DNA of 36,483 nucleotides from Flavobacteriales bacterium (lineage in GTDB: Bacteria; Bacteroidota; Bacteroidia; Flavobacteriales_D; Crocinitomicaceae). This document shows positions 19,634 to 36,483 of the stretch, one piece after another. Position 1 is the first letter of the stretch. Each line of letters opens with the position of its first letter. The position numbers and the translations under genes are program-made. Under the pieces are notes generated by a model. That model was not told the origin of the DNA. It did not search any database and was given only the letters and a program-made list of their open reading frames with translations. The stretch lies in assembly GCA_947470515.1 (NCBI GenBank), contig CANITF010000032.1, positions 1-36,483 of the forward strand, written 5' to 3'.

Positions 19634-19697
19634 ACGAAATTCCTTCTGTGAATTTAAAAAATGAAAGCCGAAAATGTTCTATTTTTAGAAAAAAAAT

Positions 19698-20108: not shown

Positions 20109-20109
20109 A

Positions 20110-20481
20110 TTATTTTAAATTAGCTAAATAGCGTTCCAGATTTGGATTATCTAACATGACATCAGAACCTAGGAAAAGAACTTTTTTACAACCATTTCTT
20201 TCAATCCAAAGTTCTAAATTTGATACACCAACCATTAATGTTCCGTTAATATCAATTTTGTGAACAGGTTTTTGATTTTTATCAAAAATTGAGCGAATAT
20301 CTAAAATTTCTTTGTCAACCTCCTGATTTTCTGTAAATATAACAAGACCATCGATTCCTTCTTCCGAATCTTCGTTCTTAGATGAAAATTCCAGAACTTC
20401 AATATTAAGTTCGTTTACCCAAGAAGTCAGGTAGTTCGAAAACCGAGAATTGTCTTTTAAAAAAATCTTGTCTAATTTCAT
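20110..20481 (-). CDS. Small conserved-looking hypothetical protein
   Basis: The ORF encodes 123 residues with no signal peptide or membrane helix. It reads as an alpha/beta protein (IDGLVIFTENQEVDKEILDI, GCKKVLFLGSDVMLDNP). No family was recognised. A TACTTTTG box 41 nt before the ATG supports that it is expressed. It ends 1 bp from the stop of the VOC gene. Confidence 0.65.
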   Translation of the reverse strand: MKLDKIFLKDNSRFSNYLTSWVNELNIEVLEFSSKNEDSEEGIDGLVIFTENQEVDKEILDIRSIFDKNQKPVHKIDINGTLMVGVSNLELWIERNGCKKVLFLGSDVMLDNPNLERYLANLK

Positions 20482-20521
20482 TGGTGTCCTAGTGCTGATT
20501 TTTTAAAATCACGTGGGAGTG

Positions 20522-20529
20522 CAAAAGTA
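20522..20529 (-). promoter_or_regulatory. Predicted -7 box of the 123-residue gene
   Basis: On the minus strand the sequence TACTTTTG matches TAnnTTTG and lies 41 nt before the ATG at 20481. No clear -33 element was found. Confidence 0.45.
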
Positions 20530-20564
20530 ATACATTTATCGACTTATTTGTGAAAATAATCACA

Positions 20565-21956
20565 TTAATAACCCAATATTTTTAAATAATCCGCTGCTGT
20601 TTGTTCTTCACTAAACAATTCTGTTTGCAATTTACCATTTTCATCACGTTGAATCAGAATATGTTTTGGTTCTGGGATCAGGCAGTGTTTCAATCCACCA
20701 AATCCTCCGATTGTTTCTTGGTATGCTCCTGTGTTGAAAAAGCCAAGATACAAAACTTTATTTCTATCGTATTTTGGAAGATAAATGGCATTTGAATGTT
20801 GCTCTGAATTGTAATAATCGTCACTGTCGCATGTTAAACCACCTAGTAAAACACGCTCGTAATCGTCATTCCACCTATTGACGGGCAACATAATATATCG
20901 TTGATTGATTGCCCACGTATCTGGAAGATTTGTCATGAAAGAAGAATCAATCATGTTCCACTTTTCTCTATCATTTTGTTGTTTTTGGTGCAACACACTG
21001 AAAATAGCTCCACCACTTTCTCCAACTGTAAACGATCCAAACTCCGTAAATATATTTGGTTCTGGAATATCATTGTCCGCACAAACACGTTGCACTTGAG
21101 TCAATATTTCACGCACCATATAAGCGTAATCAAAATCGAAAGCCAAAGACTTTTTAATTGGGAAACCACCACCGATATTTAATGAATCCAATGAAGGACA
21201 GACCTTTTTCAAATCACTATAAATACGCAAACATTTCGTTAGTTCATTCCAATAATAGGCTGTATCATTGATCCCTGTATTTATGAAAAAATGCAACATT
21301 TTCACTTCAACACGTGGATTGTCTTTCAACATTGCTTTGTAAAAAGGAACAATTTCACGGTACCGAATTCCTAAACGGGAGGTATAAAATTCGAATTTGG
21401 GTTCTTCTTCAGATGCAATTCGAATCCCTATTTTCAGATCTTTGTCTGTTCTGGCTAAAAGATCTTGCAGCTCCTGTGTATTGTCAACAATAGGTATAAC
21501 ATTTAACTTTCCATCATTGATTAAACCTGCAATATTGTCGATATATTGTTTTGGCTTGTATCCGTTACAGATTACATATTTCCCATCCGTTAATTTTCCC
21601 GAGTTGTAAAGATTTCGAACGATATCGATGTCAAAAGCGGAAGAAGTTTCTATATGAACATCATTTTTCAAAACCTCATCTAAAACAAATGAAAAATGGT
21701 TACTTTTTGTGCAATATGAATAATAGTAATTTCCAGAATAACCTAAATTACTGATTGCTTCTCTAAACCAGCCTTTTGCTCGTTGAATATTGTTTGATAT
21801 TTGCGGTAAATAATTGAATTTCAGAGGAGTTCCATAATCCTTAATTAAACGCATCAGGTCTATACCATGAAAAAATAAATGATCTTCTCTTAAATGGAAT
21901 TCATTCTGTGGAAAATCAAAAGTTTGGTCAATTAAATCAATATACTTCGTTCTCAT
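20565..21956 (-). CDS. Arginine decarboxylase-like fold-type III PLP enzyme
   Basis: The 463-residue enzyme has an alanine-racemase-type barrel with the PLP lysine K84 in YYSYCTKSNHFSF. It also has HIETSSAFDIDIV, the phosphate-binding SLNIGGGFPIKK and a C-terminal domain with GGLTCDSDDYY and LGFFNTGAYQETIGG. This short form is the arginine decarboxylase usual in Bacteroidota, distinct from the roughly 650-residue E. coli SpeA. It would convert arginine to agmatine, the first step of polyamine synthesis. No agmatinase gene is nearby in the window, so the substrate assignment rests on family resemblance. It follows the ArsC-like gene with a 33-bp gap. Confidence 0.8.
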   Translation of the reverse strand: MRTKYIDLIDQTFDFPQNEFHLREDHLFFHGIDLMRLIKDYGTPLKFNYLPQISNNIQRAKGWFREAISNLGYSGNYYYSYCTKSNHFSFVLDEVLKNDVHIETSSAFDIDIVRNLYNSGKLTDGKYVICNGYKPKQYIDNIAGLINDGKLNVIPIVDNTQELQDLLARTDKDLKIGIRIASEEEPKFEFYTSRLGIRYREIVPFYKAMLKDNPRVEVKMLHFFINTGINDTAYYWNELTKCLRIYSDLKKVCPSLDSLNIGGGFPIKKSLAFDFDYAYMVREILTQVQRVCADNDIPEPNIFTEFGSFTVGESGGAIFSVLHQKQQNDREKWNMIDSSFMTNLPDTWAINQRYIMLPVNRWNDDYERVLLGGLTCDSDDYYNSEQHSNAIYLPKYDRNKVLYLGFFNTGAYQETIGGFGGLKHCLIPEPKHILIQRDENGKLQTELFSEEQTAADYLKILGY

Positions 21957-21989
21957 TTACTTCTTCTGCACTAAATTATTTTTAATCAC

Positions 21990-22340
21990 TTAAAGGATTT
22001 CCAAAATTCTTTCTGTTGGTCGACCAATAATTGCCTTGTTGCCTTTTATTACGATAGGTCGCTCAATAAGTTTCGGAAATTTAATCATTGCCTCAATCCA
22101 TTCTGAATCAGAAAGAATTTTACCCTTAAAATTAGCTTTAAAATCTTCTTCTCCTTTGCGAATCAATGCTTCCGGTTTGATACCTAATTTGGAAATAATT
22201 TCTTCTAAATCTTTGTAAGTCGGGATGTTTTTCAAATAATCTACAACAGAATAATCTACTCCTTTTTCATTAAGAAATTCAAGGGCACATCTGCTTTTCG
22301 AACAGCGGCTGTTGTGAAATACGATTATTGAATCTGCCAT
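21990..22340 (-). CDS. ArsC/Spx family (arsenate reductase-like) protein
   Basis: From the ATG at 22340 the protein has 116 residues with a thioredoxin-like ArsC fold. The N-terminal redox motif IIVFHNSRCSKSR contains the catalytic-type Cys and a second Cys. The C-terminal part IVIKGNKAIIGRP is the conserved ArsC loop. Family members reduce arsenate with glutaredoxin/glutathione or act as Spx-like regulators. No arsenic-resistance genes are near, so a general redox role is equally likely. A longer reading from 22361 was rejected, because that codon overlaps the -7 promoter box. Confidence 0.85.
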   Translation of the reverse strand: MADSIIVFHNSRCSKSRCALEFLNEKGVDYSVVDYLKNIPTYKDLEEIISKLGIKPEALIRKGEEDFKANFKGKILSDSEWIEAMIKFPKLIERPIVIKGNKAIIGRPTERILEIL

Positions 22341-22358
22341 ACCATTATTATTGGGATG

Positions 22359-22366
22359 CAAAGATA
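22359..22366 (-). promoter_or_regulatory. -7 box that fixes the start of the ArsC-like gene
   Basis: On the minus strand TATCTTTG matches TAnnTTTG. It overlaps the upstream in-frame ATG (22361), so that ATG would not be transcribed. The next ATG at 22340 gives a short leader of about 12-15 nt. Confidence 0.6.
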
Positions 22367-22427
22367 CGCGTTTCTTGAATCATACTATATGTTTTACTCT
22401 TTTTTTAAAAATCAAACATCACGTTTC

Positions 22428-23672
22428 TCATCCAATCAATTGCGTAAAAAGTGCTTGATTATTATTCAAGTATTCATATTTAAAATGCAACTTATCCAAA
22501 TTGAAATAAATTCTCTTCAAATCTTCCGGACTTTTTAATTCTATTCCGACAACCGCAGGACCGCTTTCTCTGTTATTCTTTTTAGAAAATTGAAAAAAGG
22601 TGATATCATCATCTGGACCTAAAATTTCGGTAACAAAATCTTTCAATGCACCAGGTCGCTGAGGAAATTGAATTAAGAAATAATGCTTTAATCCTTCATA
22701 AAATAGAGAGCGCTCTTTTATTTCTTCAGTTCGTGTGATGTCATTGTTACTTCCACTCACAACACACACACAATTTTTACCTTTAATTTCATCTTGATAA
22801 AAATCAAGCGCGGCAATACTTAATGCTCCTGCTGGTTCAACAACGATTGCTTCTTCATTGTATAATTTTAATATTGTTGAACATACTTTTCCTTCTGGAA
22901 CCAAAATAATATCATCAAGGTTCTTTTTGCATATTTCAAAATTCAAATCCCCTACTCTTTTTACTGCAGCGCCATCAACAAATTTGTCAATTTCATCCAA
23001 AGTGATATTTTGATTTGCTGCAATTGATGTTTTCATTGATGGAGCACCAAGAGGTTCAACCCCAATTATTTTTGTGGATGGACTTAATGTTTTAAAAACC
23101 GTTGAAACACCGGCGGACAGTCCTCCCCCACCAATAGGCACAAATAAATAATCGATTGATTCCTTGATTTGTTCAAGAATTTCAAGTCCAACAGTTCCTT
23201 GACCTGCAATGACTTTTACATCGTCAAAAGGATGCACAAAAACATTGTTGTTCGCTTCACAGAATTCTAAGGCCTTTTTATACGTATCATCAAAAGTGTC
23301 GCCTTCTAAGATTATTTGAACATTATTTTTACCAAATAATTCGACTTGTTTTATTTTCTGCTTTGGCGTTGTTGCCGGCATAAAAATGGTGCCTTGGATA
23401 TTCAATAAATGGCATGAATAGGCAACACCTTGCGCATGATTTCCTGCACTTGCACAGACAATTCCTTGTTTCCTTTGATTTGATTGGAGGGAATTAATTT
23501 TATTGTAAGCTCCTCTAATTTTGTAAGAACGAACCACTTGAAGGTCTTCTCGTTTAAGATAAATTGAAGCAGCGTATTGACTTGACAAATTAATACTCAA
23601 GCTGCAAGGAGTTTCAAGAATAATCCCGCGTAAATTTTCCTTGGCTGCTTTTATTTCTTCAAGAAGTTCCAT
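22428..23672 (-). CDS. ilvA: Threonine dehydratase (biosynthetic)
   Basis: The 414-residue PLP enzyme deaminates threonine to 2-oxobutanoate, the entry to isoleucine synthesis. The PLP lysine is K51 in VVRSYKIRGAYNK. CASAGNHAQGVA, the phosphate loop PIGGGGLSAG and VVSGSNND follow. The C terminus (about residues 325-414, HYFLIQFPQRPGALKDFV) is a single ACT-like regulatory domain, the usual site of isoleucine feedback in this form. It is the last gene of the ilv operon, 13 bp after ilvC. Confidence 0.95.
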   Translation of the reverse strand: MELLEEIKAAKENLRGIILETPCSLSINLSSQYAASIYLKREDLQVVRSYKIRGAYNKINSLQSNQRKQGIVCASAGNHAQGVAYSCHLLNIQGTIFMPATTPKQKIKQVELFGKNNVQIILEGDTFDDTYKKALEFCEANNNVFVHPFDDVKVIAGQGTVGLEILEQIKESIDYLFVPIGGGGLSAGVSTVFKTLSPSTKIIGVEPLGAPSMKTSIAANQNITLDEIDKFVDGAAVKRVGDLNFEICKKNLDDIILVPEGKVCSTILKLYNEEAIVVEPAGALSIAALDFYQDEIKGKNCVCVVSGSNNDITRTEEIKERSLFYEGLKHYFLIQFPQRPGALKDFVTEILGPDDDITFFQFSKKNNRESGPAVVGIELKSPEDLKRIYFNLDKLHFKYEYLNNNQALFTQLIG

Positions 23673-23685
23673 TAGATTCTAATAA

Positions 23686-25155
23686 TTAATTTAACTTTTT
23701 CATATCCGTCATCATTCCTCTTAACCACGCTCCTACTTCCTCAATTGGGTGTTGACGAATTGACGCATTCACTTCAATCAATTCCAAATTGTCCACTTCA
23801 TTCGTAGATGAAAAATTATTCCCGATGACATTCAATTCTATTGTGGACATGAAATCTTTTAATAATGGCTTGCAAGCATGATCAAATAAGTAACACCCAT
23901 ATTCAGCCGTATCTGAGATAATTCTGTTCATTTCGAATAATTTCTTTCTCGCGATTGTATTTGCGATCAATGGCGCCTCGTGAAGGGATTCATAATAAGC
24001 TGATTCGGCAACGATTCCTGTTTCCGTCATGGTTTCATAAGCCAATTCAACTCCAGCTTTGACAAATGCAACTAATAAAGTTCCTTGATCAAAATAGGTT
24101 TGTTCTGAAATAGTTGAGCTCGTTGCAGTGGTTTTTTCGAATGCCGTTTCACCTGTTTCTTTTCTCCAAGTGTGCAATTCTAAATCACCATTCTTCCAAT
24201 CTTCCATCATTCTTTTAGAAAAATCACCACTCATGATATCATCCATGTGCTTTTGAAAAAGTGGACGCATAATGGCTTTTAATTCTTCAGCCATTTCAAA
24301 CGCTTCAATTTTTGCAGAATTTGATAATCGGTCCATCATATTGGTAATACCGCCATGTTTCAATGCTTCCGTAATTGTTTCCCAACCATATTGAATCAAT
24401 TTCGCTGCATACGCAGGTTCGATTCCTTTTTCAACCATTTTGTCGAAAGATAAAATAGAACCTGTTTGAAGCAAGCCACACAAAATTGTTTGTTCACCCA
24501 TTAAGTCAGACTTAACTTCTGCGACAAAAGAAGAAAATAAAACACCTGCTTTGTGTCCACCAGTTGCAGCTGCGTATGCTTTTGCTTGTTCCAAACCTAA
24601 ACCATTTGGATCATTTTCTGGATGAACGGCTATTAACGTTGGTACTCCAAATCCGCGCTTATATTCTTCTCGCACTTCAGTACCTGGACATTTTGGTGCA
24701 ACCATGATAACGGTAATATCTTCTCTGATTTGCATTCCTTCTTCAACGATATTGAATCCGTGAGAATAAGACAAAGTGGAATCTTTTTTCATCAATGTCA
24801 TGATTGCATTGACAACTGATGTATGCTGTTTGTCTGGAGTTAGATTACAAACTACATCTGCCCATGGAACTATTTCTTCGTACGTTCCAACAATAAAATT
24901 ATTCTCAGTTGCATTCTTATATGAAATTCTTTTTTCTAAAATAGCATCTTCTCGCAAGGCATAAGAAATATCTAAACCTGAATCGCGCATGTTTAATCCT
25001 TGGTTTAATCCTTGCGCTCCACAACCAACTATGACAATTTTTTTACCTTTCAAAGCATTAATTCCATCTTCAAAATGTGATTGATCAAGGAATTCACAGG
25101 TTGCTAATTGTTCAACTTGTTTTCTAAAAGGCAATTGATTAAAATAATTTTTCAT
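23686..25155 (-). CDS. ilvC: Ketol-acid reductoisomerase, class II
   Basis: The 489-residue length identifies the long class II enzyme with a duplicated knotted C-terminal domain. The Rossmann motif [20 protein letters not shown] lies near residue 41. Metal and substrate motifs include [30 protein letters not shown] and the second copy around [26 protein letters not shown]. It converts acetolactate and acetohydroxybutyrate to dihydroxy acids with NADPH and magnesium. It lies 12 bp after ilvN in the operon. Confidence 0.96.
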
Positions 25156-25167
25156 CTGTATTTCTTA

Positions 25168-25692
25168 TTAATTTTCTAATTCTTCTAAATAATGTTCTAA
25201 TGTTTTCATTGGTTTTGAAATGGCAACTCTTCCAGAGCGCACAAATTCAAGCACTCCAATTGAACTCAGATCATTGAATAATACTGTCAATTCTTCTGGT
25301 TGACCAGTTTTTTCTACGATAGTGAACTCTTTTTCGATTGTCAAAATGCGCGCATGGTGTTCACGAACAATTTTTTCAGCGCCACCGTTTGCAAATGCTT
25401 CGGTCGACAATTTATACAAGGCTATTTCTTGGTGAACCACCTCATCATCTGTATGAAAAAATGCTTTTAAAACCTCAACTTGTTTTTCAATTTGCGCAAC
25501 TACTTTTTTCACTTGATCTAACGACGTATTCACAACAATTGTATATCGGTAAACCCCTTTTACTTCCGATTCGGAAGCTGTGATACTTTCAATATTTAAA
25601 TGGCGCCTTGTGAAAATGATAGTGATTCTATTTAGAATTCCAATACTATTTTCTGTGAAGACCGATATGTTATAAGCTCTTTCCATACTCAT
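25168..25692 (-). CDS. ilvN: Acetolactate synthase regulatory (small) subunit
   Basis: The 174-residue protein starts with an ACT domain (YNISVFTENSIGILNRITII, RRHLNIESITASESE) and continues with the small-subunit C-terminal domain (GRVAISKPMKTLEHYLEELE). It activates the catalytic subunit and gives valine feedback inhibition. Its ATG shares one base with the ilvB stop (TAATG), so the two subunits are translationally coupled. The alternative ATG two codons later is also possible. Confidence 0.93.
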   Translation of the reverse strand: MSMERAYNISVFTENSIGILNRITIIFTRRHLNIESITASESEVKGVYRYTIVVNTSLDQVKKVVAQIEKQVEVLKAFFHTDDEVVHQEIALYKLSTEAFANGGAEKIVREHHARILTIEKEFTIVEKTGQPEELTVLFNDLSSIGVLEFVRSGRVAISKPMKTLEHYLEELEN

Positions 25693-27383
25693 TAATTTAA
25701 ACGTATTTCAGAAACAGAAGCACCTGTTTCTATCATTGGGAACACATTTTCCTCTTGTTCCACAACAACTTCCAATAAGAAAGCCCCTGTTGAATTCAAT
25801 AATGTATCTAATCCATTATCAAGTTCATTTCTTTCTGTTATTTTCAATGCATCAATTGAATATCCTTTTGCTATTGCAGTAAAATTTGGATTCACTATTT
25901 CCGTAAACGAATACCTACGATCAAAAAACAATTGTTGCCATTGACGCACCATTCCAAGGAAATTGTTGTTAAGAATTAAAATTTTAACATCCACTTTTGC
26001 TTGAAGGATTGTCCCTAACTCTTGAATGGTCATTTGAAACCCACCGTCTCCAATTATTGCCACAACTGTCTTTTCTGGATTCCCTAGCTTTGCGCCAATA
26101 GCGGCAGGCAAACTAAATCCCATTGTACCTAATCCTCCTGAAGTAACATTAGATCTAAATCCTTTATACTGATAGTATCTAGATGTAATCATTTGGTGTT
26201 GACCAACATCTGTTACAATAATTGCTTTTCCGTCTGTTTTTTCAGAAAGTAAATTAACAACCTCCGCCATTTTCAATTCGCCATTGGTTGGATGTTTCGC
26301 TTTGTTTACAACACATTCATGTTCTATTTTTTCCAATGCTCTAAATTCTCCTAGCCAATTTTCATGCTTTTTGGGAGTAATCAACTCAATCAAAAGCGAC
26401 AATGCTTCTTTCGCATCTGCTAAAACAGCTACATCCGCTTTTATTATTTTGTTTAATTCGGCTGCATCAATATCAAAATGAATCACTTTCGCTTGTTTCG
26501 CATAACGAGAAACATCACCCGTAACTCTGTCGTCGAATCTCATTCCGATAGCCAAAAGAACATCACATTCATTTGTTAAAATATTGGGAGCATAATTCCC
26601 GTGCATACCTAAATAACCTACATATAAAGGATGATCAGGTGAAAAAGCACCAAGTCCTAATAAAGTAGAAGCTACAGGAATGCCTGATTTTTCAGCAAAA
26701 GCAACTAATTCTTGTTCCGCGCCAGACAATATTATTCCTTGTCCAATTACTAAAAATGGCTTTTGAGCACTATTAAGTATATCCACCGCTGCATTCAAAT
26801 CATTCATTTGAATGGTTGGTTTTGGGGAATAACTTCTAATTTTTTCACACGGCTTATATTCAAAGTCAGTCATTCCGAATTGAGCATCTTTCGTAATATC
26901 CACCAAAACAGGTCCTGGTCGACCAGAACGGGCTATATAAAAAGCTTTTGCCATTGCGCCAGCGATATCTTCAGCCTTTGTTACTTGTACATTCCATTTG
27001 GTAACGGGCATGGATATTCCAATTACATCTGTCTCTTGAAAAGCATCGGTACCCAAAAGATGGGATGCTACTTGACCAGTAACACAAACGACAGGCGTAG
27101 AATCGATCATTGCATCAGCTAATCCAGTAATCAGATTAGTGGCTCCTGGACCTGAAGTAGCAAAGCAAACCCCTACTTTTCCAGATGTTCTTGCATATCC
27201 TTGTGCAGCATGAATCGCGCCTTGTTCGTGTCTTACTAGAATGTGATTCACTTCGTCTTTAAAATCGTAAAGTGCATCATAAATAGGCATAATTGCCCCT
27301 CCTGGATAACCAAATAGTGTATCAACTTTTTCTGCGACTAGGCAGCGCATAACTGCTTCTGCTCCACGTATATTTTTTTCCAT
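25692..27383 (-). CDS. ilvB: Acetolactate synthase catalytic (large) subunit
   Basis: The 563-residue TPP-dependent enzyme makes acetolactate from pyruvate, or acetohydroxybutyrate from pyruvate plus 2-oxobutanoate. The cofactor-activating Glu is in VRHEQGAIHAAQGYARTSGK. The TPP-binding motif is GDGGFQMTIQELGT with the NNN ending, and a FAD-binding middle domain is present (LLAIGMRFDDRVTG). The order and length are those of IlvB/AlsS-type anabolic enzymes that pair with a small subunit, which follows immediately. One base separates it from ilvD. Confidence 0.96.
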   Translation of the reverse strand: MEKNIRGAEAVMRCLVAEKVDTLFGYPGGAIMPIYDALYDFKDEVNHILVRHEQGAIHAAQGYARTSGKVGVCFATSGPGATNLITGLADAMIDSTPVVCVTGQVASHLLGTDAFQETDVIGISMPVTKWNVQVTKAEDIAGAMAKAFYIARSGRPGPVLVDITKDAQFGMTDFEYKPCEKIRSYSPKPTIQMNDLNAAVDILNSAQKPFLVIGQGIILSGAEQELVAFAEKSGIPVASTLLGLGAFSPDHPLYVGYLGMHGNYAPNILTNECDVLLAIGMRFDDRVTGDVSRYAKQAKVIHFDIDAAELNKIIKADVAVLADAKEALSLLIELITPKKHENWLGEFRALEKIEHECVVNKAKHPTNGELKMAEVVNLLSEKTDGKAIIVTDVGQHQMITSRYYQYKGFRSNVTSGGLGTMGFSLPAAIGAKLGNPEKTVVAIIGDGGFQMTIQELGTILQAKVDVKILILNNNFLGMVRQWQQLFFDRRYSFTEIVNPNFTAIAKGYSIDALKITERNELDNGLDTLLNSTGAFLLEVVVEQEENVFPMIETGASVSEIRLN

Positions 27384-27384
27384 T

Positions 27385-29058
27385 TTACTTATCTGTTATG
27401 CATCCTTCAGAAGCTGAAGCAACACATTTTGCGTATTTATAAAGAACTCCCTGTTTAACTTTTAATTCGGGTTGTTTCCAAGACTGTTTTCTATGATTAA
27501 TTTCTTCCTCAGAAACTTTTAATGTTAGTTTATTATTGACCGCATCAATTGCTATAAGATCTCCGTCCTGTACAAATGCAATTAATCCTCCTTCAAAAGC
27601 TTCTGGTGTAATATGACCAACAACGAATCCATGTGTTCCACCAGAAAATCTTCCATCCGTAATTAAAGCAACCGAACCTCCTAGACCTGCACCCATGATC
27701 GCTGAAGTAGGTTTTAACATTTCGGGCATTCCAGGACCACCTTTGGGTCCGCAATTTCGAATGACGACAACATTTCCAGCTTTTATTCGACCCTCACGGA
27801 CACCGTCAATAACAGTAAATTCATCTTCAAAAATGACTGCAGGTCCTTCAAAAAATTCACCTTCATTACCACTTATTTTGGCCACAGAACCTTCTGAAGC
27901 CAAGTTTCCATATAGAACTTGAAGATGTCCAGTTTGTTTTAATGGATTATTAACTTGATGAAAAACATCTTGACCAACAGTAAGATCATTAATGCTTTCC
28001 AAATTTTCAGCAATCGTTTTACCTGTAACTGTCAAACAATCACCATGGATTAAACCTTCCTTTAATAGATACTTCATCACGGCTGGAACGCCACCAACTC
28101 TGTGTAAATCTTCCATTAAATATTTCCCGCTTGGTTTTAAATCAGCTAAAACTGGTGTTTTGTCGCTAAATCGTTGAAAATCATCAATCGTCAATTTAAT
28201 TCCAACCGAATGTGCCATTGCAATTAAATGCAAGACAGCATTTGTAGAACCACCCAAAACAACAACCATGGTCATGGCATTTTCAAATGCTTTCATCGTC
28301 ATAATATCACGTGGCTTGATATCATTTTCGAGTAAGTATCGAATTGCTTTTCCGGCTTCTTCGCATTCTTGATTCTTTTCGTTGCTTTTTGCAGGATTAG
28401 AGGAGCTGTAAGGTAAAGACATTCCTAACGCTTCAATTGCAGAAGACATGGTGTTAGCCGTATACATTCCACCGCAAGCTCCAGCTCCTGGACATGCATT
28501 TTTTATAACTCCTTTGAAATCTTCAGGAGTAATCGTATTATTGAATTTTTTGCCCAATGCTTCGAATGCAGAAACGATATTTAAGGATTCTCCATTCCAA
28601 TTTCCTGAATGAATGCTTCCACCATAAACCATTATTGCAGGTCTATTTAATCTTCCCATTGCGATAATAGAGCCCGGCATATTTTTGTCGCAGCCAACAA
28701 CAGCTATCATACCATCGTACCATTGCGCTCCCATAACTGTTTCAATAGAATCGGCAATGACATCTCGAGAAACCAAGGAATAGCGCATGCCATCCGTTCC
28801 ATTTGATATACCATCACTCACACCTATCGTATTAAAGATCAATCCAACAAGATCTGCATCCCAAACAGATGTTTTGATGTCTTTTGCCAAATCATTAAGA
28901 TGCATGTTACACGTGTTTCCTTCATAACCTGTACTAACGATTCCAACTTGCGCTTTCTTCAAATCTTCTTCTGTCAAACCGATTCCATATAACATTGCTT
29001 GAGCGGCTGGCTGTGTTTCATCTTGGGTTATTGTTTTACTATACTTATTCATTACCAT
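27385..29058 (-). CDS. ilvD: Dihydroxy-acid dehydratase
   Basis: The 557-residue iron-sulfur enzyme dehydrates the dihydroxy acids to 2-keto acids. Cluster cysteines are C50 (YEGNTCNMH), C123 (GCDKNMPG) and C195 ([12 protein letters not shown]), the three-Cys pattern usual for the family. [17 protein letters not shown] and [11 protein letters not shown] are also present. It lies 8 bp after ilvE and one base before ilvB. The start could be the first Met or the Met two codons later. Confidence 0.96.
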
Positions 29059-29066
29059 GATTTCTG

Positions 29067-29954
29067 TTATAAATAAACATTTTGATATTCATTAAAAGCA
29101 ACTCTTCTTTTGTATTTGCGTTGGATGAAAGAACTGTTAGATTCTTCCCAATTCATTGGAAATTTATAGTCATTGAATTGCTCTATCCCAATTACTTCAG
29201 CTGCTGTTCCACAGAAAAATGCTGCATCAGCAGTTTCAATTTCTTCAGGTTTGAAGAAACGTTCTTCTACTTCAATTTGTAATTCTTTCGCAATTTCAAA
29301 AACAGTTGCTCTTGTAATCCCAGAAAGTATATTTCCTAATGGCGCTGTTACAAGTTTTCCATCTTTTTCAAAAAAGAAGTTTGCACCAGGGCCTTCAGCT
29401 ACATAGCCATTCATATCGGTTAATAAAGCTTCATCAAATCCATTTTGTTTTGCTTCGGTAGTTGCAAGAATGCTATTCGTGTAATGACCCACAACCTTTG
29501 CTTGTACAAAGCATGATTTAGGATTTGGACGTTGAAAAGAGGAGAGCATCACTTTCAGCATTTTATCTCCTAGGTATTTTCCCCATTCCCAAACCATAAT
29601 TACGAGGTGCACTTCATCTGTTGGAGTAAGTGACATATTATCTCCTAGATAAACAAGTGGACGGATATACGCATCTTTCAAATCATTCATTTCTAAAAGT
29701 TGATACGTGATTTGTTCCAATTCTTCAGAAGAATATTTCAACTTGATATGCATTTTTTCGGCTGAATAATGCAAACGGTCAAAGTGTTCTTTTGCTTTGA
29801 AAATTCTTGTTCCATCAGGTGTATCATAGGACCGAATGCCCTCAAAAACGCCATTGCCGTAATGCATTGTCTGATTGTACAAACCAACTTTAGCATCTGC
29901 TGCTTTAACAAAGTTGCCATTTAAAAAAACTACTGAATTTTCTGAATAATACAT
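29067..29954 (-). CDS. ilvE: Branched-chain amino acid aminotransferase
   Basis: The 295-residue fold-type IV PLP enzyme does the last step of isoleucine, valine and leucine synthesis. Visible features are [14 protein letters not shown], the PLP lysine K153 in [15 protein letters not shown], and [24 protein letters not shown] followed by LSGITRATV. The GHY after K153 replaces the commoner GNY. It is the first structural gene of the operon, directly downstream of the attenuator. No leucine-specific genes are in the window. Confidence 0.95.
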
Positions 29955-29980
29955 ATTCCTTCCTTTTTACATTTTTGAAT

Positions 29981-30016
29981 TAAAAAAAAGCCTTTCTCAA
30001 CAATTGAGAAAGGCTT
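29981..30016 (-). terminator. Attenuator terminator of the ilv operon
   Basis: On the minus strand, AAGCCTTTCTCAA, a 3-nt loop and TTGAGAAAGGCTT form a perfect 13-bp stem followed by a run of T. It stands between the leader peptide and ilvE, 27 nt before the ilvE ATG, so it must be read through for the operon to be expressed. Its 5' arm (30005-30016) can instead pair with the upstream segment 30029-30040, which overlaps the leader stop codon. Confidence 0.93.
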
Positions 30017-30040
30017 ATAAATAACAACAAGCATTTCTCA
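30005..30040 (-). promoter_or_regulatory. Antiterminator hairpin of the ilv attenuator
   Basis: The minus-strand segment TGAGAAATGCTT (30040-30029) is complementary to AAGCCTTTCTCA (30016-30005) at 11 of 12 positions. The latter is the 5' arm of the terminator. Segment TGAGAAATGCTT is thus a near copy of the terminator's 3' arm TGAGAAAGGCTT, and the two compete. Its first three bases are the leader-peptide stop codon, so a ribosome finishing the peptide would mask it. A ribosome stalled at the Ile codons would leave it free. Confidence 0.85.
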
Positions 30041-30088
30041 CTCTTTTGGAATGTCAATAATAATTGAGATAAAAATGACCTGTTTCAT
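30038..30088 (-). CDS. ilv operon leader peptide
   Basis: The short ORF encodes MKQVIFISIIIDIPKE, 16 residues with six Ile and one Val, including three Ile codons in a row (ATT ATT ATT). It lies 84 nt upstream of ilvE and just before a perfect terminator. Its UGA stop begins the antiterminator arm. This is the classic design of a ribosome-stalling attenuator sensing charged tRNA-Ile and possibly tRNA-Val. As usual in Bacteroidota, no strong Shine-Dalgarno is seen; the region before the ATG is A-rich. No consensus promoter could be placed with confidence upstream (30089-30203). Confidence 0.88.
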   Translation of the reverse strand: MKQVIFISIIIDIPKE

Positions 30089-30160
30089 ATATTTTATTTT
30101 TTCTAATGTTATTATCCTGCTTACTTTAAAATAATAAATACTTTCTCCTAGGAATATAAA

Positions 30161-30219
30161 TTTGATTAGCGCTATTACCGACCTAACCTAAACCTATATA
30201 TACTTATTTGCTAATCAAA
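30161..30219 (-). terminator. Possible terminator or inverted repeat after the T9SS cargo gene
   Basis: On the minus strand TTTGATTAGC (30219-30210, within the last codons) and GCTAATCAAA (30170-30161) are perfect 10-bp complements separated by 39 nt, followed by TTTATATT. The long loop makes it an imperfect terminator, so function is uncertain. It lies between the cargo gene stop and the ilv leader. Confidence 0.4.
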
Positions 30220-32114
30220 ATTTTATCCGAAAACAAAATCGAAGAATTCGCCAGTTTAAGGAAATATATTCCGTTGGAGAAAGAATTCATTAAGTTCATT
30301 TCTGTAAATCGTTCTGATGCTTTTAAAAAAATCTCAGAAGTTTGCTCCATTTGGCCCATTGCATTATAAACTGTCGCTTCTAACAATTGATTTTCGTCAA
30401 ATTTATATCCTAAATTTATAGAGTTGTTGTTAGAATTATAAGACGAGCTGATATCAAGACCACTTCCTGTCAAACAATTGTTGTTTAAGGAGATTGTCTT
30501 TAATTCGCGTTTAGCACCATTCACATCAGTCTGAGACAATCTATAATAATTCATTCCTTCCTCTGCATAATAATCAGCAAAAACATAAGTAGTTTTTTGG
30601 GTAGTATTCATTGCACCACTTATTTGGGCCAAAACAACGAAATCAGCATCACTGCCAGCTCTTTCGATGGTGAAAAAGGCATTATTAAGTTCTGAAGCTG
30701 TTGACCATTCTAATTTCGCGTGGGTTTTTTCACAAGAACCAGTGAAGTCAAGGAATTCGATAGGAAGTAAAATTCCATAACATGAGCCTTGCAATGCTGG
30801 AACTGAGGTAACGGCAATTGTAGTTGGAGCAGTTGTGTTTATTACATTTACTGCACCTGTTCTTGATGGATTACCTGAATTTTGTAAATTGATTGTTGCA
30901 GTATTATCATTTCTGATATCTTGCCCTGAAACACTAAATGTACATTGATTGATAGTAAAGGTAGCCGGATTTGAAGATCCAACTCTCGCAAATAAATGGT
31001 TTCCACTTGTAGTCGAAGTATTACTCGTAAAAGCACAGGTCGTCAAGTTTACAGTCGCAGTAGTGCCAGATCCCGCAAAACTTGTATTTATTCCAATGGC
31101 TCCACCATTTCCACTGTTACTAACAGAATTACCTGTAAACGTACAATTTGAAATATTCAAAGTTGCTCCTCTACCAACGGAAATAGCACCTCCATAATTT
31201 GGTCCTCCTGATTGGAACGAAGAATTATTCAAAAAACGACTACCATTAATTGTAAGGTTTGCGCCAGATATATAAATTGCTCCCCCACCAGAACCAGAGG
31301 AATTTCTATTATCCGAGAATATTGAATTATTCACGGTAACATTAGTAGTATTATTACCAACAATATAAAGGCCCGACCCACCTTGAAAATCTTTAGAATT
31401 ATTCGAAAAAGAATAATTATTAAATGTCACTGAATTCCCAATTCCTTCAACATTTACTCCTCCTCCAGCGACAGAACTTGTTGAATTACAATTTGAACCT
31501 CCACTATTAAAAGTAACATTGGAAGCACCTGCTATAACAATTGTTGCAGAGCCACCGCCTGGATGATTTTCATCTGACAAGACATTATTAAAAACAACTC
31601 CTGTTGCACCTGATATTTGAATGGCACTGCCTCCTCCGGTTCCTCTATTATAACCCTTAATATAAAGTGCTTGAATAGTTATATTATTTGCTATAATGTC
31701 AAACAAACGATTGGCGTCAGCACTTGCAGAAGCATTGTCAAATACAGTTTTTGATGGTCCTGCACCTAAAATTGTTATTCCAGATACATTAAGGGTTAAA
31801 TTAACATCATTATAAGTTCCCTTATCAACATATATAATATCCCCACTAGTGATTACATTCGATCCAGAAGGTCCATAAGTTGCCCAAATACTGGAAAGTG
31901 AAGCTTTTGGAAAAGCGGCAGATTGACCGTTATTCAAATTACTGCCTACACCGGTGCAAAATACATCACCTGAAATTGACGCATCATTTACAAAATAAGT
32001 AAATGAAAAACAATTAAAAATGGAAGAAGAAAAAATCACAAACAAAACTATTAACTTCGATAGCGTTAAAAATTCAAATTTGAATTTTGAAACGAATGAA
32101 AAATTATTTTTCAT
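30204..32114 (-). CDS. Secreted beta-helix protein with T9SS C-terminal sorting domain
   Basis: The 636-residue protein begins with a long signal peptide (to about residue 38). Most of the mature protein (about residues 50-400) is a right-handed parallel beta-helix with repeated N-rich turns such as NVTVNNSIFSDNRN, LTINGSRFLNNSSF and LNISNCTFTGNSVS. This is the pattern of pectate-lyase-like or choice-of-anchor proteins. A Cys-containing beta domain follows (LPIEFLDFTGSC), then a type A T9SS sorting domain at about 560-636 (ATVYNAMGQ, FSNGIYFLKLANSS, KILISK). It is exported across the outer membrane and anchored or released. Catalytic residues of a polysaccharide lyase were not identified, so an adhesive or structural role is equally possible. 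Confidence 0.9.
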   Translation of the reverse strand: MKNNFSFVSKFKFEFLTLSKLIVLFVIFSSSIFNCFSFTYFVNDASISGDVFCTGVGSNLNNGQSAAFPKASLSSIWATYGPSGSNVITSGDIIYVDKGTYNDVNLTLNVSGITILGAGPSKTVFDNASASADANRLFDIIANNITIQALYIKGYNRGTGGGSAIQISGATGVVFNNVLSDENHPGGGSATIVIAGASNVTFNSGGSNCNSTSSVAGGGVNVEGIGNSVTFNNYSFSNNSKDFQGGSGLYIVGNNTTNVTVNNSIFSDNRNSSGSGGGAIYISGANLTINGSRFLNNSSFQSGGPNYGGAISVGRGATLNISNCTFTGNSVSNSGNGGAIGINTSFAGSGTTATVNLTTCAFTSNTSTTSGNHLFARVGSSNPATFTINQCTFSVSGQDIRNDNTATINLQNSGNPSRTGAVNVINTTAPTTIAVTSVPALQGSCYGILLPIEFLDFTGSCEKTHAKLEWSTASELNNAFFTIERAGSDADFVVLAQISGAMNTTQKTTYVFADYYAEEGMNYYRLSQTDVNGAKRELKTISLNNNCLTGSGLDISSSYNSNNNSINLGYKFDENQLLEATVYNAMGQMEQTSEIFLKASERFTEMNLMNSFSNGIYFLKLANSSILFSDKILISK

Positions 32115-32156
32115 AGATGTTTAGGTTTAGGTTTTGCCCATTTTAAATGAACAGCA

Positions 32157-32183
32157 CAAACATACATTGATTAAGAAAGACAA
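32157..32183 (-). promoter_or_regulatory. Predicted promoter of the T9SS cargo gene
   Basis: On the minus strand TTG (32183-32181), a 16-nt spacer and TATGTTTG (32164-32157) fit the Bacteroidota promoter pattern. The predicted leader to the ATG at 32114 is about 40 nt. The 160 bp upstream to the LytTR gene holds nothing else recognisable. Confidence 0.5.
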
Positions 32184-32345
32184 TAAAAAAACTTCCGTAT
32201 TTGGCTAGATAACGTTGTAAAACGAGATGATTTGGGGTGAAATGTTGGATTTCTGAATTGAACGGTTATAACAGTTAACCACAAATGAATTTAATATTAA
32301 CTTATTAGCAGAAATCAATTTAATAAAAAGGAAATACGTTAGATT

Positions 32346-33137
32346 TTATTTTAATAATTGATTCACGTCATACGAGCGAGAAACTGGTACTAAATTATCG
32401 AAATGAGTTAATTCAAGTTTATATGCTTGTGCTTTACCTTTAACTTCTGAAATATAAGAAGAGTTGATTAAAAATGATTTGTGAACGCGCTTAAAATACA
32501 CGTCTTCATTTATGAGCATGTCTTCTATTTTCTTCAGCGATATGCGTTCCATAGATTTTTTCAATTGCTGGTTTTTATCTAAAAAATAAGTAATCACATA
32601 ATTATCATTTGCTTCAAAACAGATAATGTTTTTGATCTTAACCTCAATCAATAATTTTCCATTATCATTTTCAAGGTGAAATATTTTATCTTCAATATCC
32701 TCAGAGGATTCATCTTTTTTGACACTCACCTTACTAAGAATTGAAATCTTTTCCTCTGCTTCTTTAAACAGAAATAATAATAATGAAATAACTGTTGGTA
32801 AAAAGGAGGAAACAATAAACGCCGCTACGAAAACAAAATAATTGGAAAATGAATTATTAAATAAAAACCAAATTAATGATCCTGCTATCAAACCACTTAT
32901 TTGAAAAGAACTTGCAAGTAATATTTTGTTCTTACCAAGTTTCTTAGATGCTTTAATGATTAAATAAAGGAATACAAATTCTATTAGAAAAGTACTTATA
33001 AAAACACATCCAAGAAATAAAAAGAAATTTAAATCCTCCTTCAAAAATACTTTTGAATCAAAAAATAAATTGATCACGGTTTGATATATACCAAACCCCA
33101 AGGCAATTACTATTTTATATTTCAATGGCAAATTCAT
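32346..33137 (-). CDS. Membrane-anchored LytTR DNA-binding protein
   Basis: From the ATG at 33137 the protein has 263 residues. Four membrane helices span about residues 9-27, 37-62, 73-94 and 100-125, followed by a linker and a LytTR DNA-binding domain at about 152-263 (ICFEANDNYVITYF, FKRVHKSFLINSSYI, LVPVSRSYDV). There is no receiver domain, so it is not a standard response regulator. The start is set by an ATGA overlap with the stop of the upstream TPR gene; a longer reading from 33215 would run inside that gene. The DNA-binding domain would have to act at the membrane. It probably regulates nearby or its own genes, with the adjacent secreted-protein gene as an obvious candidate. Confidence 0.85.
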   Translation of the reverse strand: MNLPLKYKIVIALGFGIYQTVINLFFDSKVFLKEDLNFFLFLGCVFISTFLIEFVFLYLIIKASKKLGKNKILLASSFQISGLIAGSLIWFLFNNSFSNYFVFVAAFIVSSFLPTVISLLLFLFKEAEEKISILSKVSVKKDESSEDIEDKIFHLENDNGKLLIEVKIKNIICFEANDNYVITYFLDKNQQLKKSMERISLKKIEDMLINEDVYFKRVHKSFLINSSYISEVKGKAQAYKLELTHFDNLVPVSRSYDVNQLLK

Positions 33138-34291
33138 TCTTTTGAAGTTGTTAATTTTTTTACACCATATAGAATTAGGCCTATTGATAAAATTAAAAGA
33201 GTAATAACGAACCAAGTGATTTTCAATCCATATACTCTTAAATTCTTTTCAAACTTCTCATTTTTCTTTGCTAAATCTCTTTCTTCTTGAACAAGCTGGA
33301 TCTCCAATTGCTTTTTTGTGATTTCATTTCTATAGTTTAAATCATCCAATTGATTCTTTATATTCAAACTGTTCATTTTTTCAATCAATGATAGGTATTG
33401 CTTATATTTCAATGCTGCTTTTTGCCAGTCACTTGATTTTTCATATACTTCAATTTGAAGTTTGACTAGTTCTAATAAATTGGTACTATTCTTATACTTC
33501 AACGAAAGGTTTTCGCCTTCTTGAAACTCCGACAGAGCACTCGATGAATTTCCAGAAGAAATCAACAATTTACCTTTTAACTTATGTAAAATGATTGCTT
33601 CTTCTATTTGGCCTTGTTGTATTTTCTTTTCAATTGAGGCAATTACTATTGAGGCATCAGTAAATCTTTTTATTCTAATATAAACATCAGCAATTCCTAA
33701 ATAAGCATAAACTATTCCTTCATTACTTTTTGCTTTTTGCTCGATTAATAAAGAATTATTGAAATAAGTCAATGCCAAATCGAGACTATCTAAATCCTTA
33801 TAGCATTCTCCTATGTTATAAAAACGAATTGACTTTTGAATCGGTTGATTTAATTTTTCTTCAATCGCTAGGCTTTTATTGAAATATTCGATTGCTTGAC
33901 TATAATTTCCTTGGAGTTGATAAACACTTCCGATATTATTTAAACATGCTGACTGACGCGGAAAATCCTTTAATTTTTCAGCTGTATTTAATGCTTTTAA
34001 ATAGAAATCTAGAGATGTAACATAGAAACCCCTATCCTTGTTTACAATTCCAAGTAGCGTATATGCATTAATTCTATAGAAATTAGGCTTGCTTTTAAGA
34101 CTTTCCGTGAGCAATTTATTTGCATCTTCAAGCACTGAGGAAGCATTATTTTCCAAAGAACTAAAAGCAATTGAATCAAGCTCTCTTAGCTTTATTTCGC
34201 CACTATTTTGAGACAATAAAACTCCACATGGAAGAATTACAGAAAATAAAAATAAAATTATATTTTTCTTAAAGCTCATAATTGAACTCAA
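33134..34291 (-). CDS. TPR protein with signal anchor and C-terminal membrane helix, no kinase domain
   Basis: The 385-residue protein has an N-terminal signal/anchor (about residues 9-27). At least four TPR motifs lie between about 70 and 300 (ACLNNIGSVYQLQGNYSQAI, SIRFYNIGECYKDLDSLDLA, VYAYLGIADVYIRIKRFTDA). A coiled coil covers about 310-350 and a final membrane helix 358-377, with only a few cytoplasmic residues after it. The architecture is that of the sensor half of a Bacteroidota TPR histidine kinase cut off just after the membrane. The gene is translationally coupled to a membrane LytTR protein, so signal transfer may be by direct contact in the membrane. There is no sign of a lost kinase region between the genes. 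Confidence 0.85.
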   Translation of the reverse strand: MSSIMSFKKNIILFLFSVILPCGVLLSQNSGEIKLRELDSIAFSSLENNASSVLEDANKLLTESLKSKPNFYRINAYTLLGIVNKDRGFYVTSLDFYLKALNTAEKLKDFPRQSACLNNIGSVYQLQGNYSQAIEYFNKSLAIEEKLNQPIQKSIRFYNIGECYKDLDSLDLALTYFNNSLLIEQKAKSNEGIVYAYLGIADVYIRIKRFTDASIVIASIEKKIQQGQIEEAIILHKLKGKLLISSGNSSSALSEFQEGENLSLKYKNSTNLLELVKLQIEVYEKSSDWQKAALKYKQYLSLIEKMNSLNIKNQLDDLNYRNEITKKQLEIQLVQEERDLAKKNEKFEKNLRVYGLKITWFVITLLILSIGLILYGVKKLTTSKE

Positions 34292-34405
34292 AGAAACGAT
34301 TTTTTAAGAAAAAATATAAGATTTGAATTAGAAAGATTTAGATAATCTTTAAATCCTAGCTCTATACCCTTTTGCAAATGGATTAGGTGTAACAAAAATG
34401 GCAAT

Positions 34406-34625
34406 TTATCGGTTACTTTTAGCACTAACATATACTCCAGAGGATACATCACTATGGGCTGGCCATTTTAAGGTAATGGATAGTGGGCTTATTACAACTG
34501 CTGCTTCAACTTGTATAGACAGTCAATCACCAAAGGTGGTTTGAGCAAATGGAACAAATTGTAAATTAAGAACAGAATTGTAAAAAATTTGTAAGTTTAG
34601 TTTTGTAATACTTAATTAATAGCAT
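34406..34625 (-). pseudogene. Possible remnant of a secreted, Fn3-like protein gene
   Basis: On the minus strand an ATG at 34625 opens MLLIKYYKTKLTNFLQ, a signal-peptide-like start. After a one-base frame shift the sense continues as NSVLNLQFVPFAQTTFGD, an in-frame stop, LSIQVEAAVVISPLSITLKW, PAHSDVSSGVYVSAKSN and a final stop. The SPLSITLKWP stretch resembles the first strands of fibronectin-type domains found in T9SS-exported proteins. The rest of such a gene is absent. The remaining spacer (34292-34405) shows nothing else. The resemblance is by eye only. Confidence 0.35.
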
Positions 34626-34634
34626 AGTAAATAA

Positions 34635-35666
34635 TTATCTAAATCTAACTGAATTGTTTCCAAAAGAATTTGGAGCTGCATAGCGTAAAGATAATTCAAA
34701 TCCCCCTCTTAGGTTGGAAGCTGGACTTAATTGAGACACATTAAAATCATAACTCAAGCCAATCATGTAATTTGATATTTCATATTGTAAGGAAGTAATT
34801 ATGGCATCTTTATGTCTATAATATACACCAATGGAAGCAGCTGATTGACCCCTGAAACCTGTTACTTTCGACGCTTGTTGTAGTAAAAATCTTACTCGTG
34901 TCCCTAGTAATACTTCACTTGCTTTATTTTGTCTGATGTACATTAAACTTGGACCAATTGCAACATTAGAATTTGGTAAACTGATTAAAGAATTTGCAAA
35001 CGCTGTTACTTTTATTGGAAGACGTTCGTCACTACCAACAAAAGAATATTTTGGTCGGTTAATATGTGAAACGGAAACTCCAAAATTTAATATTTTATCA
35101 TTATTTCCTGTCACTTTATGGTATTCATTAGCGCTATATGAATATACTATTCCAGCAGATACATCAGCAACTTTTATAGTATTATAAGTACTTCCTTCTG
35201 AATTTAAAATTGCTGAATTATAACTACTCCCATCATACTGACTTCCCCATTCAAATCGTCCTGGATCGAGACTTCGTTGTAACATACCACCTTGAATGCC
35301 TAATCCAATTGAACTTAGTCGGTTAATTTTAATGTGCCCTGCAACATTAAATTTTATATCCATTGTTTTCACGGTACTTGCCGCATTATCAGAAAGAGCA
35401 TAAATTCCCAATGCTAAAAAACTGTTTCTACTTTTTGTGTTAATTCGTTGATCTACAGAAAAAGCGAACGTTTGAAATGGCGATTCAACACTTGTCCATT
35501 GATTGCGATAATTTAAATTCACCTGTGTCTTATATACAGCTCCGGCCAAACCTGGGTTTAGAACTAGGGGTGACTTATCGAACTGAGTAAAGTGAATATC
35601 TTGAGTTTTACCATTAAAAGGTAAGAAAACAAGTATTGTTATTAATGAAGAAATTATTTTTTTCAT
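34635..35666 (-). CDS. PorP/SprF family T9SS outer-membrane protein
   Basis: The 343-residue protein has a signal peptide to about residue 21 (GKTQ) and then the family start QDIHFTQFDKSPLVLNPGLA and VNLNYRNQWTSVESPFQTFA. An outer-membrane beta barrel follows with alternating strands to the end (GFELSLRYAAPN). PorP/SprF proteins help type IX secretion of specific partners, often the CHU_C/type B-sorted protein encoded next to them; here such a gene lies 6 bp upstream. It is therefore likely the dedicated partner of that adhesin-like protein. Confidence 0.93.
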   Translation of the reverse strand: MKKIISSLITILVFLPFNGKTQDIHFTQFDKSPLVLNPGLAGAVYKTQVNLNYRNQWTSVESPFQTFAFSVDQRINTKSRNSFLALGIYALSDNAASTVKTMDIKFNVAGHIKINRLSSIGLGIQGGMLQRSLDPGRFEWGSQYDGSSYNSAILNSEGSTYNTIKVADVSAGIVYSYSANEYHKVTGNNDKILNFGVSVSHINRPKYSFVGSDERLPIKVTAFANSLISLPNSNVAIGPSLMYIRQNKASEVLLGTRVRFLLQQASKVTGFRGQSAASIGVYYRHKDAIITSLQYEISNYMIGLSYDFNVSQLSPASNLRGGFELSLRYAAPNSFGNNSVRFR

Positions 35667-35672
35667 ATTTAA

Positions 35673-36483
35673 TTATTTTACAACCGTTATTGTTCCTTTT
35701 TTACTAATTGGTTCATTAGCTGCAGAAGTTGCTTCTAATGTATAAGCATATACACCTGTGCTTACTATTTTTTCTTTGTATGTTCCATTCCAACATTCTT
35801 TAGGATCTGTGCTTTCATAGATTAATTCTCCCCATCGATTATAGATTTTGAAAGATAAACCTTGAATACAATCAGCACCAAATAGGCATAATTCATCATC
35901 TAATGAATTTTCATTAGGAGAGAATACGTTTGGAACAAATAAATTACCACAGTCGATACTAATAGTAACTACTATACAAGCAGTGTCAGTACATCCATTT
36001 AAATCTTGCCCTATTACACAATAGATTGTTGTTGTATTTGGAGATGCAATGACTGTTGCTCCAGTTGAGACATCTAATCCTGTTGTTGGAATCCACATAT
36101 ATGAATTAGCTCCAAAAGCATTTAAAGTTGTTGATGTTCCTAGATTGATAATTACATCCGGACTAACAGTTACAGTTGGACCGGCTCCAACCGCATTTAC
36201 AGTTAAAACAGTTACAGCTGAAATACAACCTGTAGTCATATCTTGAGCGGTGATGTTGTAATTACCAGGAGCCAATCCAGAGAAAGTTGTACCTACTTGA
36301 TATGCTCCACCATTGCTATATTGTATCGTTGCACCAATCGGAGCAGCTACCACAATTGTTCCGGTAGGTGTTGTACAAGTTGGTTGAATAGTGACCGAAG
36401 CTGTTGGTGCTGCAGGAGCTGTTGGAATAGCATTTACAGTTAAAACAGTTACAGCTGAAATACAACCTGTAGTCATGTTTTGA
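35673..36483 (-). CDS. Gliding-type surface protein with SprB-like repeats and CHU_C sorting domain (5' end outside window)
   Basis: About 269 C-terminal residues are visible; the reading frame stays open to the window edge. At least one full and one partial 79-residue repeat are seen, each ending in DMTTGCISAVTVLTVNA or NMTTGCISAVTVLTVNA, with the core GTIVVAAPIGATIQYSNGGA and FSGLAPGNYNITAQD. This matches the SprB-repeat type of gliding adhesins. A PKD/Ig-like domain (TTLNAFGANSYMWIPTTGL) and a gliding-motility C-terminal domain follow (VPNVFSPNENSLDDELCLFG, FKIYNRWGELIYES, STGVYAYTLEA, ISKKGTITVVK). The protein is likely large, exported by T9SS with type B sorting, and helped by the PorP/SprF protein downstream. 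Confidence 0.9.
   Translation of the reverse strand, partial: QNMTTGCISAVTVLTVNAIPTAPAAPTASVTIQPTCTTPTGTIVVAAPIGATIQYSNGGAYQVGTTFSGLAPGNYNITAQDMTTGCISAVTVLTVNAVGAGPTVTVSPDVIINLGTSTTLNAFGANSYMWIPTTGLDVSTGATVIASPNTTTIYCVIGQDLNGCTDTACIVVTISIDCGNLFVPNVFSPNENSLDDELCLFGADCIQGLSFKIYNRWGELIYESTDPKECWNGTYKEKIVSTGVYAYTLEATSAANEPISKKGTITVVK
36193..36239 (-). repeat. 47-bp exact repeat, copy 1
   Basis: These 47 bp recur exactly at 36430-36476, 237 bp (79 codons) away in the same frame. They encode the MTTGCISAVTVLTVNA end of the SprB-like repeat. The near-perfect DNA identity points to recent duplication or gene conversion between tandem repeat units. Confidence 0.9.
36430..36476 (-). repeat. 47-bp exact repeat, copy 2
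   Basis: This copy is identical to 36193-36239 and marks the end of the preceding 79-residue repeat unit. The array continues past the right edge of the window. Confidence 0.9.

Follow-up and report, generated by a model that had tools for sequence, protein, structure and literature searches.

A candidate isoleucine-sensing, ribosome-mediated attenuator before the ilvEDBNCA operon of a Flavobacteriales bacterium, with related elements in Bacteroidia

What governs transcription of the branched-chain amino-acid operon on the minus strand of this DNA? The stretch analyzed (hereafter the window, 36,483 nucleotides) carries the gene order ilvE-ilvD-ilvB-ilvN-ilvC-ilvA behind a short leader, with ilvE (29067-29954) as the first operon gene, followed by ilvD (27385-29058), ilvB (25692-27383), ilvN (25168-25692), ilvC (23686-25155), and ilvA (22428-23672). 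Pfam assigns all six minus-strand genes (PF01063 for ilvE), and NCBIfam models score above cut-off for ilvE (TIGR01122 and NF005146) and ilvA (NF006390 and TIGR02079), in agreement with the operon named in an initial annotation of the locus. The leader makes it very probable that ilvEDBNCA is controlled by a classic ribosome-mediated transcription attenuator, predicted to sense charged tRNA-Ile with a minor input from Val.

The leader ORF lies on the minus strand at 30088-30038 (ATG AAA CAG GTC ATT TTT ATC TCA ATT ATT ATT GAC ATT CCA AAA GAG TGA). Its 16 codons and TGA encode MKQVIFISIIIDIPKE, in which six residues are Ile (6 of 16 codons, at positions 5, 7, 9, 10, 11, and 13) and a lone Val occupies codon 4. 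Segments 3 (30004-30016, AAGCCTTTCTCAA) and 4 (29988-30000, TTGAGAAAGGCTT) are the 5′ and 3′ arms of a terminator hairpin (30016-30004 / 30000-29988) with 13 perfect base pairs, a loop of 3 and a predicted energy of -17.1 kcal/mol. A tract of eight T (29982-29989), the first two of which lie within the stem, marks the expected end of a short RNA and stops 27 nt before the ilvE start. The stretch 30040-30029 (TGAGAAATGCTT) starts at the leader stop codon and repeats the terminator 3′ arm (TGAGAAAGGCTT) with one mismatch in 12 positions; it can therefore pair with the 5′ arm. The initial annotation had described the Ile-rich ORF, the perfect 13-bp terminator with its T run, and the stop-codon-anchored match at 11 of 12 positions, and each was recovered here, the ORF with the same coordinates and sequence.

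Absent from that annotation, and located in the present analysis, is segment 1 (30065-30085), at the very start of the ORF. It pairs with segment 2 (30025-30043), which overlaps the leader stop codon, and the resulting duplex (30085-30065 / 30043-30025) reaches -16.9 kcal/mol, a value equalled by 3 of 300 shuffles. Segment 2 thus has alternative partners, segment 1 via 30043-30025 or segment 3 via 30041-30028. The sequence accordingly contains four segments with mutually exclusive pairings and an Ile-rich ORF whose stop codon falls inside segment 2, and with segment 1 present the classic 1:2 / 2:3 / 3:4 attenuator layout is complete at the level of predicted pairing. The whole leader folds at a predicted -33.5 kcal/mol (z = -4.8 against 200 shuffles) into the terminator and a second long hairpin that joins the first ORF codons to the stop-codon region.

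These elements suggest how the switch would operate. With ample Ile, the ribosome would get to the stop codon and cover segment 2; segment 3 would then join segment 4 in the terminator, and transcription would stop near 29982. A shortage of Ile-tRNA would stall the ribosome at Ile codons 9-13, where it would cover part of segment 1; segment 2 would then be free to form the 2:3 antiterminator, and the operon would be transcribed. When the leader is not translated, the predicted minimum-energy structure of the complete leader combines 1:2 with 3:4, which corresponds to the off state.

The arrangement is singular within the window. The terminator has the longest stem among the nine terminator-like sites in 18000-36483, although the number of such sites itself matches shuffles (8.9), and 30016-29988 is the sole fully complementary inverted repeat of at least 13 nt within 29900-32400. 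An initial detector missed imperfect stems and was superseded by a strict and a relaxed version. The strict detector, which combines a terminator, an upstream partner for its 5′ arm and an ATG-started ORF that ends there and holds at least five Ile/Val codons, returns one match on the two window strands, among 13 hairpins with any upstream partner. It is positive for 70 of 99 real upstream regions and for none of 990 dinucleotide shuffles of those 99. One pattern search and one DNA search, to which attenuators of different sequence are invisible, gave no further copy in the window genome.

Related ilvE loci were collected for comparison, with close IlvE proteins (E up to 1e-80) in 57 of 200 family genomes. 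The final set comprises 128 non-redundant upstream regions of ilvE genes whose products are at least 51% identical to the window IlvE; duplicates with identical last 200 nt were left out (35 of 80 named loci, 1 of 55 family loci, none in the phylum draw), as were the paralogues L002 and L003. The relaxed detector is positive for 92 of the 128 (family 44/54, named loci 28/45, phylum draw 20/29) and for 1 of 1480 shuffles, a shuffle set that also covers 20 additional upstream regions; the two detectors combined reach 96 of 128. The matches include Flavobacterium, Patiriisocius, Tenacibaculum, Fulvivirga, Pedobacter, and Chitinophaga, and within the window genus the leaders are mostly Ile/Val-rich peptides that start with MKQ (MKQAIIIPIIIIIPME, MKQAVIILVIQNIPEE, and MKQTIITTPIIFVIQHYAE). 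In the phylum draw, 28 of the 29 loci are labelled as the same class; the other, L143, is labelled as the same phylum only (IlvE 59% identical) and has two units. The gene ilvD adjoins ilvE in 90 of the 92 positive loci and in 29 of the 36 negative ones.

Among these 36 relaxed-negative loci, four match the strict detector (L034, L051, L054, and L055), the element is visible by eye in L042 and L044, and five from Flavobacterium (L106, L107, L109, L110, and L111) have no ilvD next to ilvE. The comparison proposed in the initial annotation, a search of relatives for conserved Ile/Val-rich ORFs with co-changing segments, is thus borne out for most related loci and fails for a minority, such as the related ilvE loci L037-L039, in which no element was seen. 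A further draw of 20 "same phylum" ilvE genes (IlvE about 40% identical) yielded no attenuator; its stretches lack ilvD and hold little DNA behind the gene, and it is no fair negative.

If the pairings are functional, the segments should change together, and they do. Attenuators that differed at fewer than four of the last 12 residues were merged, which reduced 101 to 61. In these 61, the 2:3 pairing averages -9.2 kcal/mol with the own partner and -6.7 kcal/mol with swapped partners (own lower in 52/61), and the 1:2 pairing, taken as the first 36 ORF nucleotides against the post-stop region, -10.1 versus -7.4 kcal/mol (44/61); the respective p-values of 5e-9 and 2e-5 are optimistic, since related loci are not independent. 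With the first 24 ORF nucleotides the 1:2 values are -7.1 and -5.6 kcal/mol (p = 5e-4, read with the same caution). Control pairings display no preference for the own partner (ORF end with post-stop region, p = 0.42; ORF start with segment 3, p = 0.88). The own pair ranks in the top 10% of swaps for 27 of 61 attenuators (2:3) and 22 of 61 (1:2), numbers that are low partly because many loci share a core. Across loci the core is swapped wholesale, TGAGA occurring with TTCTCA, GGATGG with CCATCC, and GTCAGG with CCTGAC. A 1:2 duplex is present in all 11 window-genus leaders tested (-13.7 to -26.2 kcal/mol; z from -2.6 to -6.2 relative to shuffled post-stop sequence). A MAFFT alignment of these 11 leaders was excluded from pair counts, and replaced by the swap and shuffle tests, because by eye segments 2 and 4 fell in shifted register in some rows.

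It may be asked whether the signal is Ile specifically, or translation or branched-chain amino-acid supply at large (Ile plus Val, or general coupling). Composition gives this broader sensing some weight: the 61 leaders, which were selected for Ile and Val, contain 33% Ile and 11% Val, 92 unfiltered ORFs ending at segment 2 contain 26% and 11%, and Chitinophaga leaders are rich in Val (VVVVVVII). Leu, however, accounts for only about 5% of residues in the 61 leaders, and in the window the six Ile codons are set against one Val, which at codon 4 lies too early in the ORF to serve as the main stall site. We therefore regard broader sensing as a doubtful description of the window and retain Ile as the likely principal signal.

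The placement of the regulatory codons can be compared with the geometry expected of an attenuator. In the 61 attenuators the distance from stop codon to segment 3 has a median of 29 nt (quartiles 27-32), and the last Ile or Val lies on average 3.4 codons before the stop versus 1.2 in shuffled peptides. Ile/Val frequencies at one to six codons before the stop are 0.07, 0.08, 0.16, 0.38, 0.61, and 0.79. We modeled a ribosome that covers -15 to +12 nt of the A-site codon and computed the probability that segment 3 is held upstream. The mean over the 61 is 0.46 on the stop codon and climbs through 0.52, 0.60, and 0.72 as the ribosome is moved back by one, two, and three codons; at four or more codons it is 0.87 to 0.96. 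The frequency and masking curves turn at similar positions, which fits a last stall codon that, under the model, must leave segment 2 free.

For the window alone the model gives 0.76 at the stop codon versus 1.0 for a stalled ribosome, a weak contrast at equilibrium. When the ribosome is removed and segment 4 is not yet made, the model still predicts antitermination (window 0.97, mean 0.81), whereas the textbook scheme has the off state here. The equilibrium model by itself hence yields no off state in the window, and a working switch there would need co-transcriptional kinetics, that is, the order of synthesis, or a footprint larger than that modeled.

The attenuator logic predicts different codons in the leaders of operons that make other amino acids. 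The gene hisG was found in 6 of 20 relatives, and all six his loci have His-run leaders (three by detector and three by eye): HHHH in L188, L189, and L192, HHH in L187 and L190, and HHHCH in L191, one such leader reading MNFKNIQLHHHHTLEFQV. Trp-run leaders occur in three of nine loci that match the trpE N-terminal model (L196-L198, with WWW, WWW, and WW); these are the three best matches to the model, and the remaining six, which matched part of it only, were not read by eye. A terminator stands behind the His-run and Trp-run leaders of these relatives. Seven homoserine dehydrogenase loci of relatives have no comparable leader, with the qualification that their upstream ends may fall outside the fetched flanks. 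Models for hisG, leuA, homoserine dehydrogenase, and the N-terminal domain of trpE match nothing in the window genome itself, and the organism is possibly a multiple auxotroph despite its complete ilv operon; the leuA result comes from one NCBIfam model, which does not establish that Leu synthesis has been lost.

Several relatives carry more than the one unit seen in the window. With the relaxed detector, 20 of the 92 positive loci contain more than one, 19 with two and L057 with three, and L045, L043, L056, L138, L143, and L144 are further examples; the strict detector gives 12 serial loci in 99. About 16 of the 20 are solid; L027, L151, L152, and L161 each contain a unit whose pairing is weaker than -5 kcal/mol. 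The cores differ between units in most serial loci, with near copies in L144 and L057. Pairing within a unit averages -9.4 kcal/mol versus -7.1 kcal/mol across units, and the distributions overlap, indicating only partial insulation between serial units.

Might the hairpin be nothing but the intergenic terminator of the T9SS-type gene (32114-30204) that lies upstream of the leader on the same strand, with a short ORF there by chance and ilv expressed from its own promoter or by readthrough? The terminator does sit between this gene and ilvE, in L013 the apparent stop of the upstream gene is, by eye, about 13 nt from the leader ATG, and no promoter is assignable in the window. A plain terminator nevertheless leaves unexplained why an Ile-rich ORF ends at segment 2, why the segments change together, and why relatives have two or three serial units, and we consider it very improbable. 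Control by a T-box, riboswitch or protein-binding leader with an incidental ORF would have a precedent in the T-box-controlled ilv operons of Firmicutes and is scarcely credible here, given that at gathering score the window contains no Rfam family and 15 related loci contain one tRNA only, and that the matches of the 361-nt leader region at E up to 5 are all far below curated scores. The best of these sub-threshold matches is the PyrG leader (30.5 versus 65 bits), and PyrR and Phe leader also appear.

The Shine-Dalgarno-like motifs GGAG, GAGG, AGGA, and AAGG are found at -16 to -4 in none of the 61 leaders (2.1 expected), and A occupies -3 in 38 of 61. The predicted start of the window leader is likewise devoid of a Shine-Dalgarno motif and lies in an A-rich context. 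Among units that come first in their series, 41 of 77 have the promoter element TAnnTTTG within 80 nt of a leader ATG, versus 157 of 1540 shuffles; among later units the count is 3 of 24. The element ends 4-12 nt before an in-frame ATG in 12 of 77 first units versus 24 of 1540 shuffles; the gaps of these 12 are 7-9 nt, and 11 come from the window family, so that they are not independent. In Flavobacterium psychrophilum, TAnnTTTG elements are located at -12 to -5 and 5.5% of mRNAs are leaderless (PMC9723704). Gaps of 7-9 nt combined with this position imply a 5′ UTR of 3-5 nt, and these 12 of 77 first leaders may start on nearly leaderless mRNA. In the his leaders L187 and L188 the element stands exactly 4 nt before the ATG, which predicts no 5′ UTR at all and a leaderless leader mRNA.

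There is no TAnnTTTG within 80 nt 5′ of the window leader ATG, and the element is not enriched across the whole window (44 sites versus 55.6 expected). A scan for sigma-70-type promoters was uninformative (74 sites versus 76.3 in shuffles), and no tie between the TTTAGGTTA repeat and a promoter was established.

Taken as a whole, these observations raise the possibility, to which we assign even chances, that the window element, itself a single copy, belongs to a class of attenuators spread across Bacteroidia that is free of Shine-Dalgarno signals, repeatedly iterated (two to three in series), and in some first leaders nearly leaderless. If so, serial units would multiply the off state and steepen the response, and transcription and translation would be tightly coupled from the first codons in bacteria carrying such attenuators. 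The serial arrays of relatives would be natural stacked RNA switches for the same signal.

The enterobacterial trp, his, and ilvGMEDA operons are the classic ribosome-mediated attenuators. The window leader shares with them an ORF rich in the regulating amino acid, the 1:2 / 2:3 / 3:4 segments, and, ahead of the first structural gene, a terminator with its T tract. Unlike them, none of the 61 leaders here has a Shine-Dalgarno-like motif, segment 1 coincides with the beginning of the ORF, and segment 2 overlaps the stop codon. Ribosome-mediated attenuation requires a leading ribosome that keeps pace with RNA polymerase. In Bacteroidota, which are not reliant on Shine-Dalgarno initiation, natural attenuators before ilv, his, and trp would permit a direct test of such tight coupling of transcription and translation by starvation for single amino acids, and the detector output provides a short list of leader ORFs for annotation and ribosome profiling. 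A 2010 survey of bacterial attenuation by Lopatovskaya et al. reportedly covered Bacteroidetes, and such elements may have been predicted earlier. Our open-access literature searches found no publication on attenuation in Bacteroidetes or Bacteroidota by name and none on serial leader-peptide attenuators that respond to the same signal.

The remark in the initial annotation that such attenuation is little described in Bacteroidota is only partly right. Against it stand the transcriptome of the flavobacterium F. psychrophilum, which gave strong clues to leader-peptide attenuation before amino-acid operons (PMC9723704), and the Bacteroid-trp motif, RF01692, listed as a cis-regulatory RNA of Bacteroidetes (PMC2864571). 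The former concerns related bacteria and the same proposed mechanism before amino-acid biosynthesis operons, and the passages in question give no operon, sequence or segment detail for comparison with the window leader (PMC9723704). The latter belongs to a different operon; the trp leaders L196-L198 would share its logic, and at gathering score Rfam gives no match in the window or in the trpE loci L196 and L197. Outside Proteobacteria, leader-ORF-dependent ilv control is also described for Corynebacterium ilvBNC (PMC10272879, PMC11857589), which differs from the window in phylum and operon. Authors writing in 2010 knew of no leader-peptide system beyond Proteobacteria and Actinobacteria before their own Firmicutes case (PMC2965389). 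Salmonella mgtCBR has tandem attenuators for different signals (ATP and proline), termed a singular example (PMC3641672). The serial loci in relatives of the window resemble it in placing two leader ORFs in one leader RNA and differ from it in that every unit is Ile/Val-rich and precedes the same operon; the window itself is not serial. As far as these sources go, the attenuation principle is known and a flavobacterial setting has been hinted at (PMC9723704), and what is new is the member in the window. Of interest, all at the level of sequence, are the apparent breadth across Bacteroidia, the missing Shine-Dalgarno signals, and the serial arrays; the last two, and the possible nearly leaderless starts, are less expected.

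Several smaller features deserve record. In loci such as L040, L041, L043, L045, L049, L050, and L054, segment 2 is GGATGGT or GATGGT and segment 4 is GGATGGC. In this type the antiterminator has a U-G wobble versus a C-G pair in the terminator, a difference that may tune the balance between the two. The upstream T9SS-type ORF is bracketed by telomere-like arms at 32117-32133 and 30185-30201 (CCTAAACCTAAAC-type and TAGGTTTAGG-type), 17 nt long and 88% complementary. Repeats of the TTAGGTT type also occur immediately 5′ of the leader ATG in several other members of the window genus.
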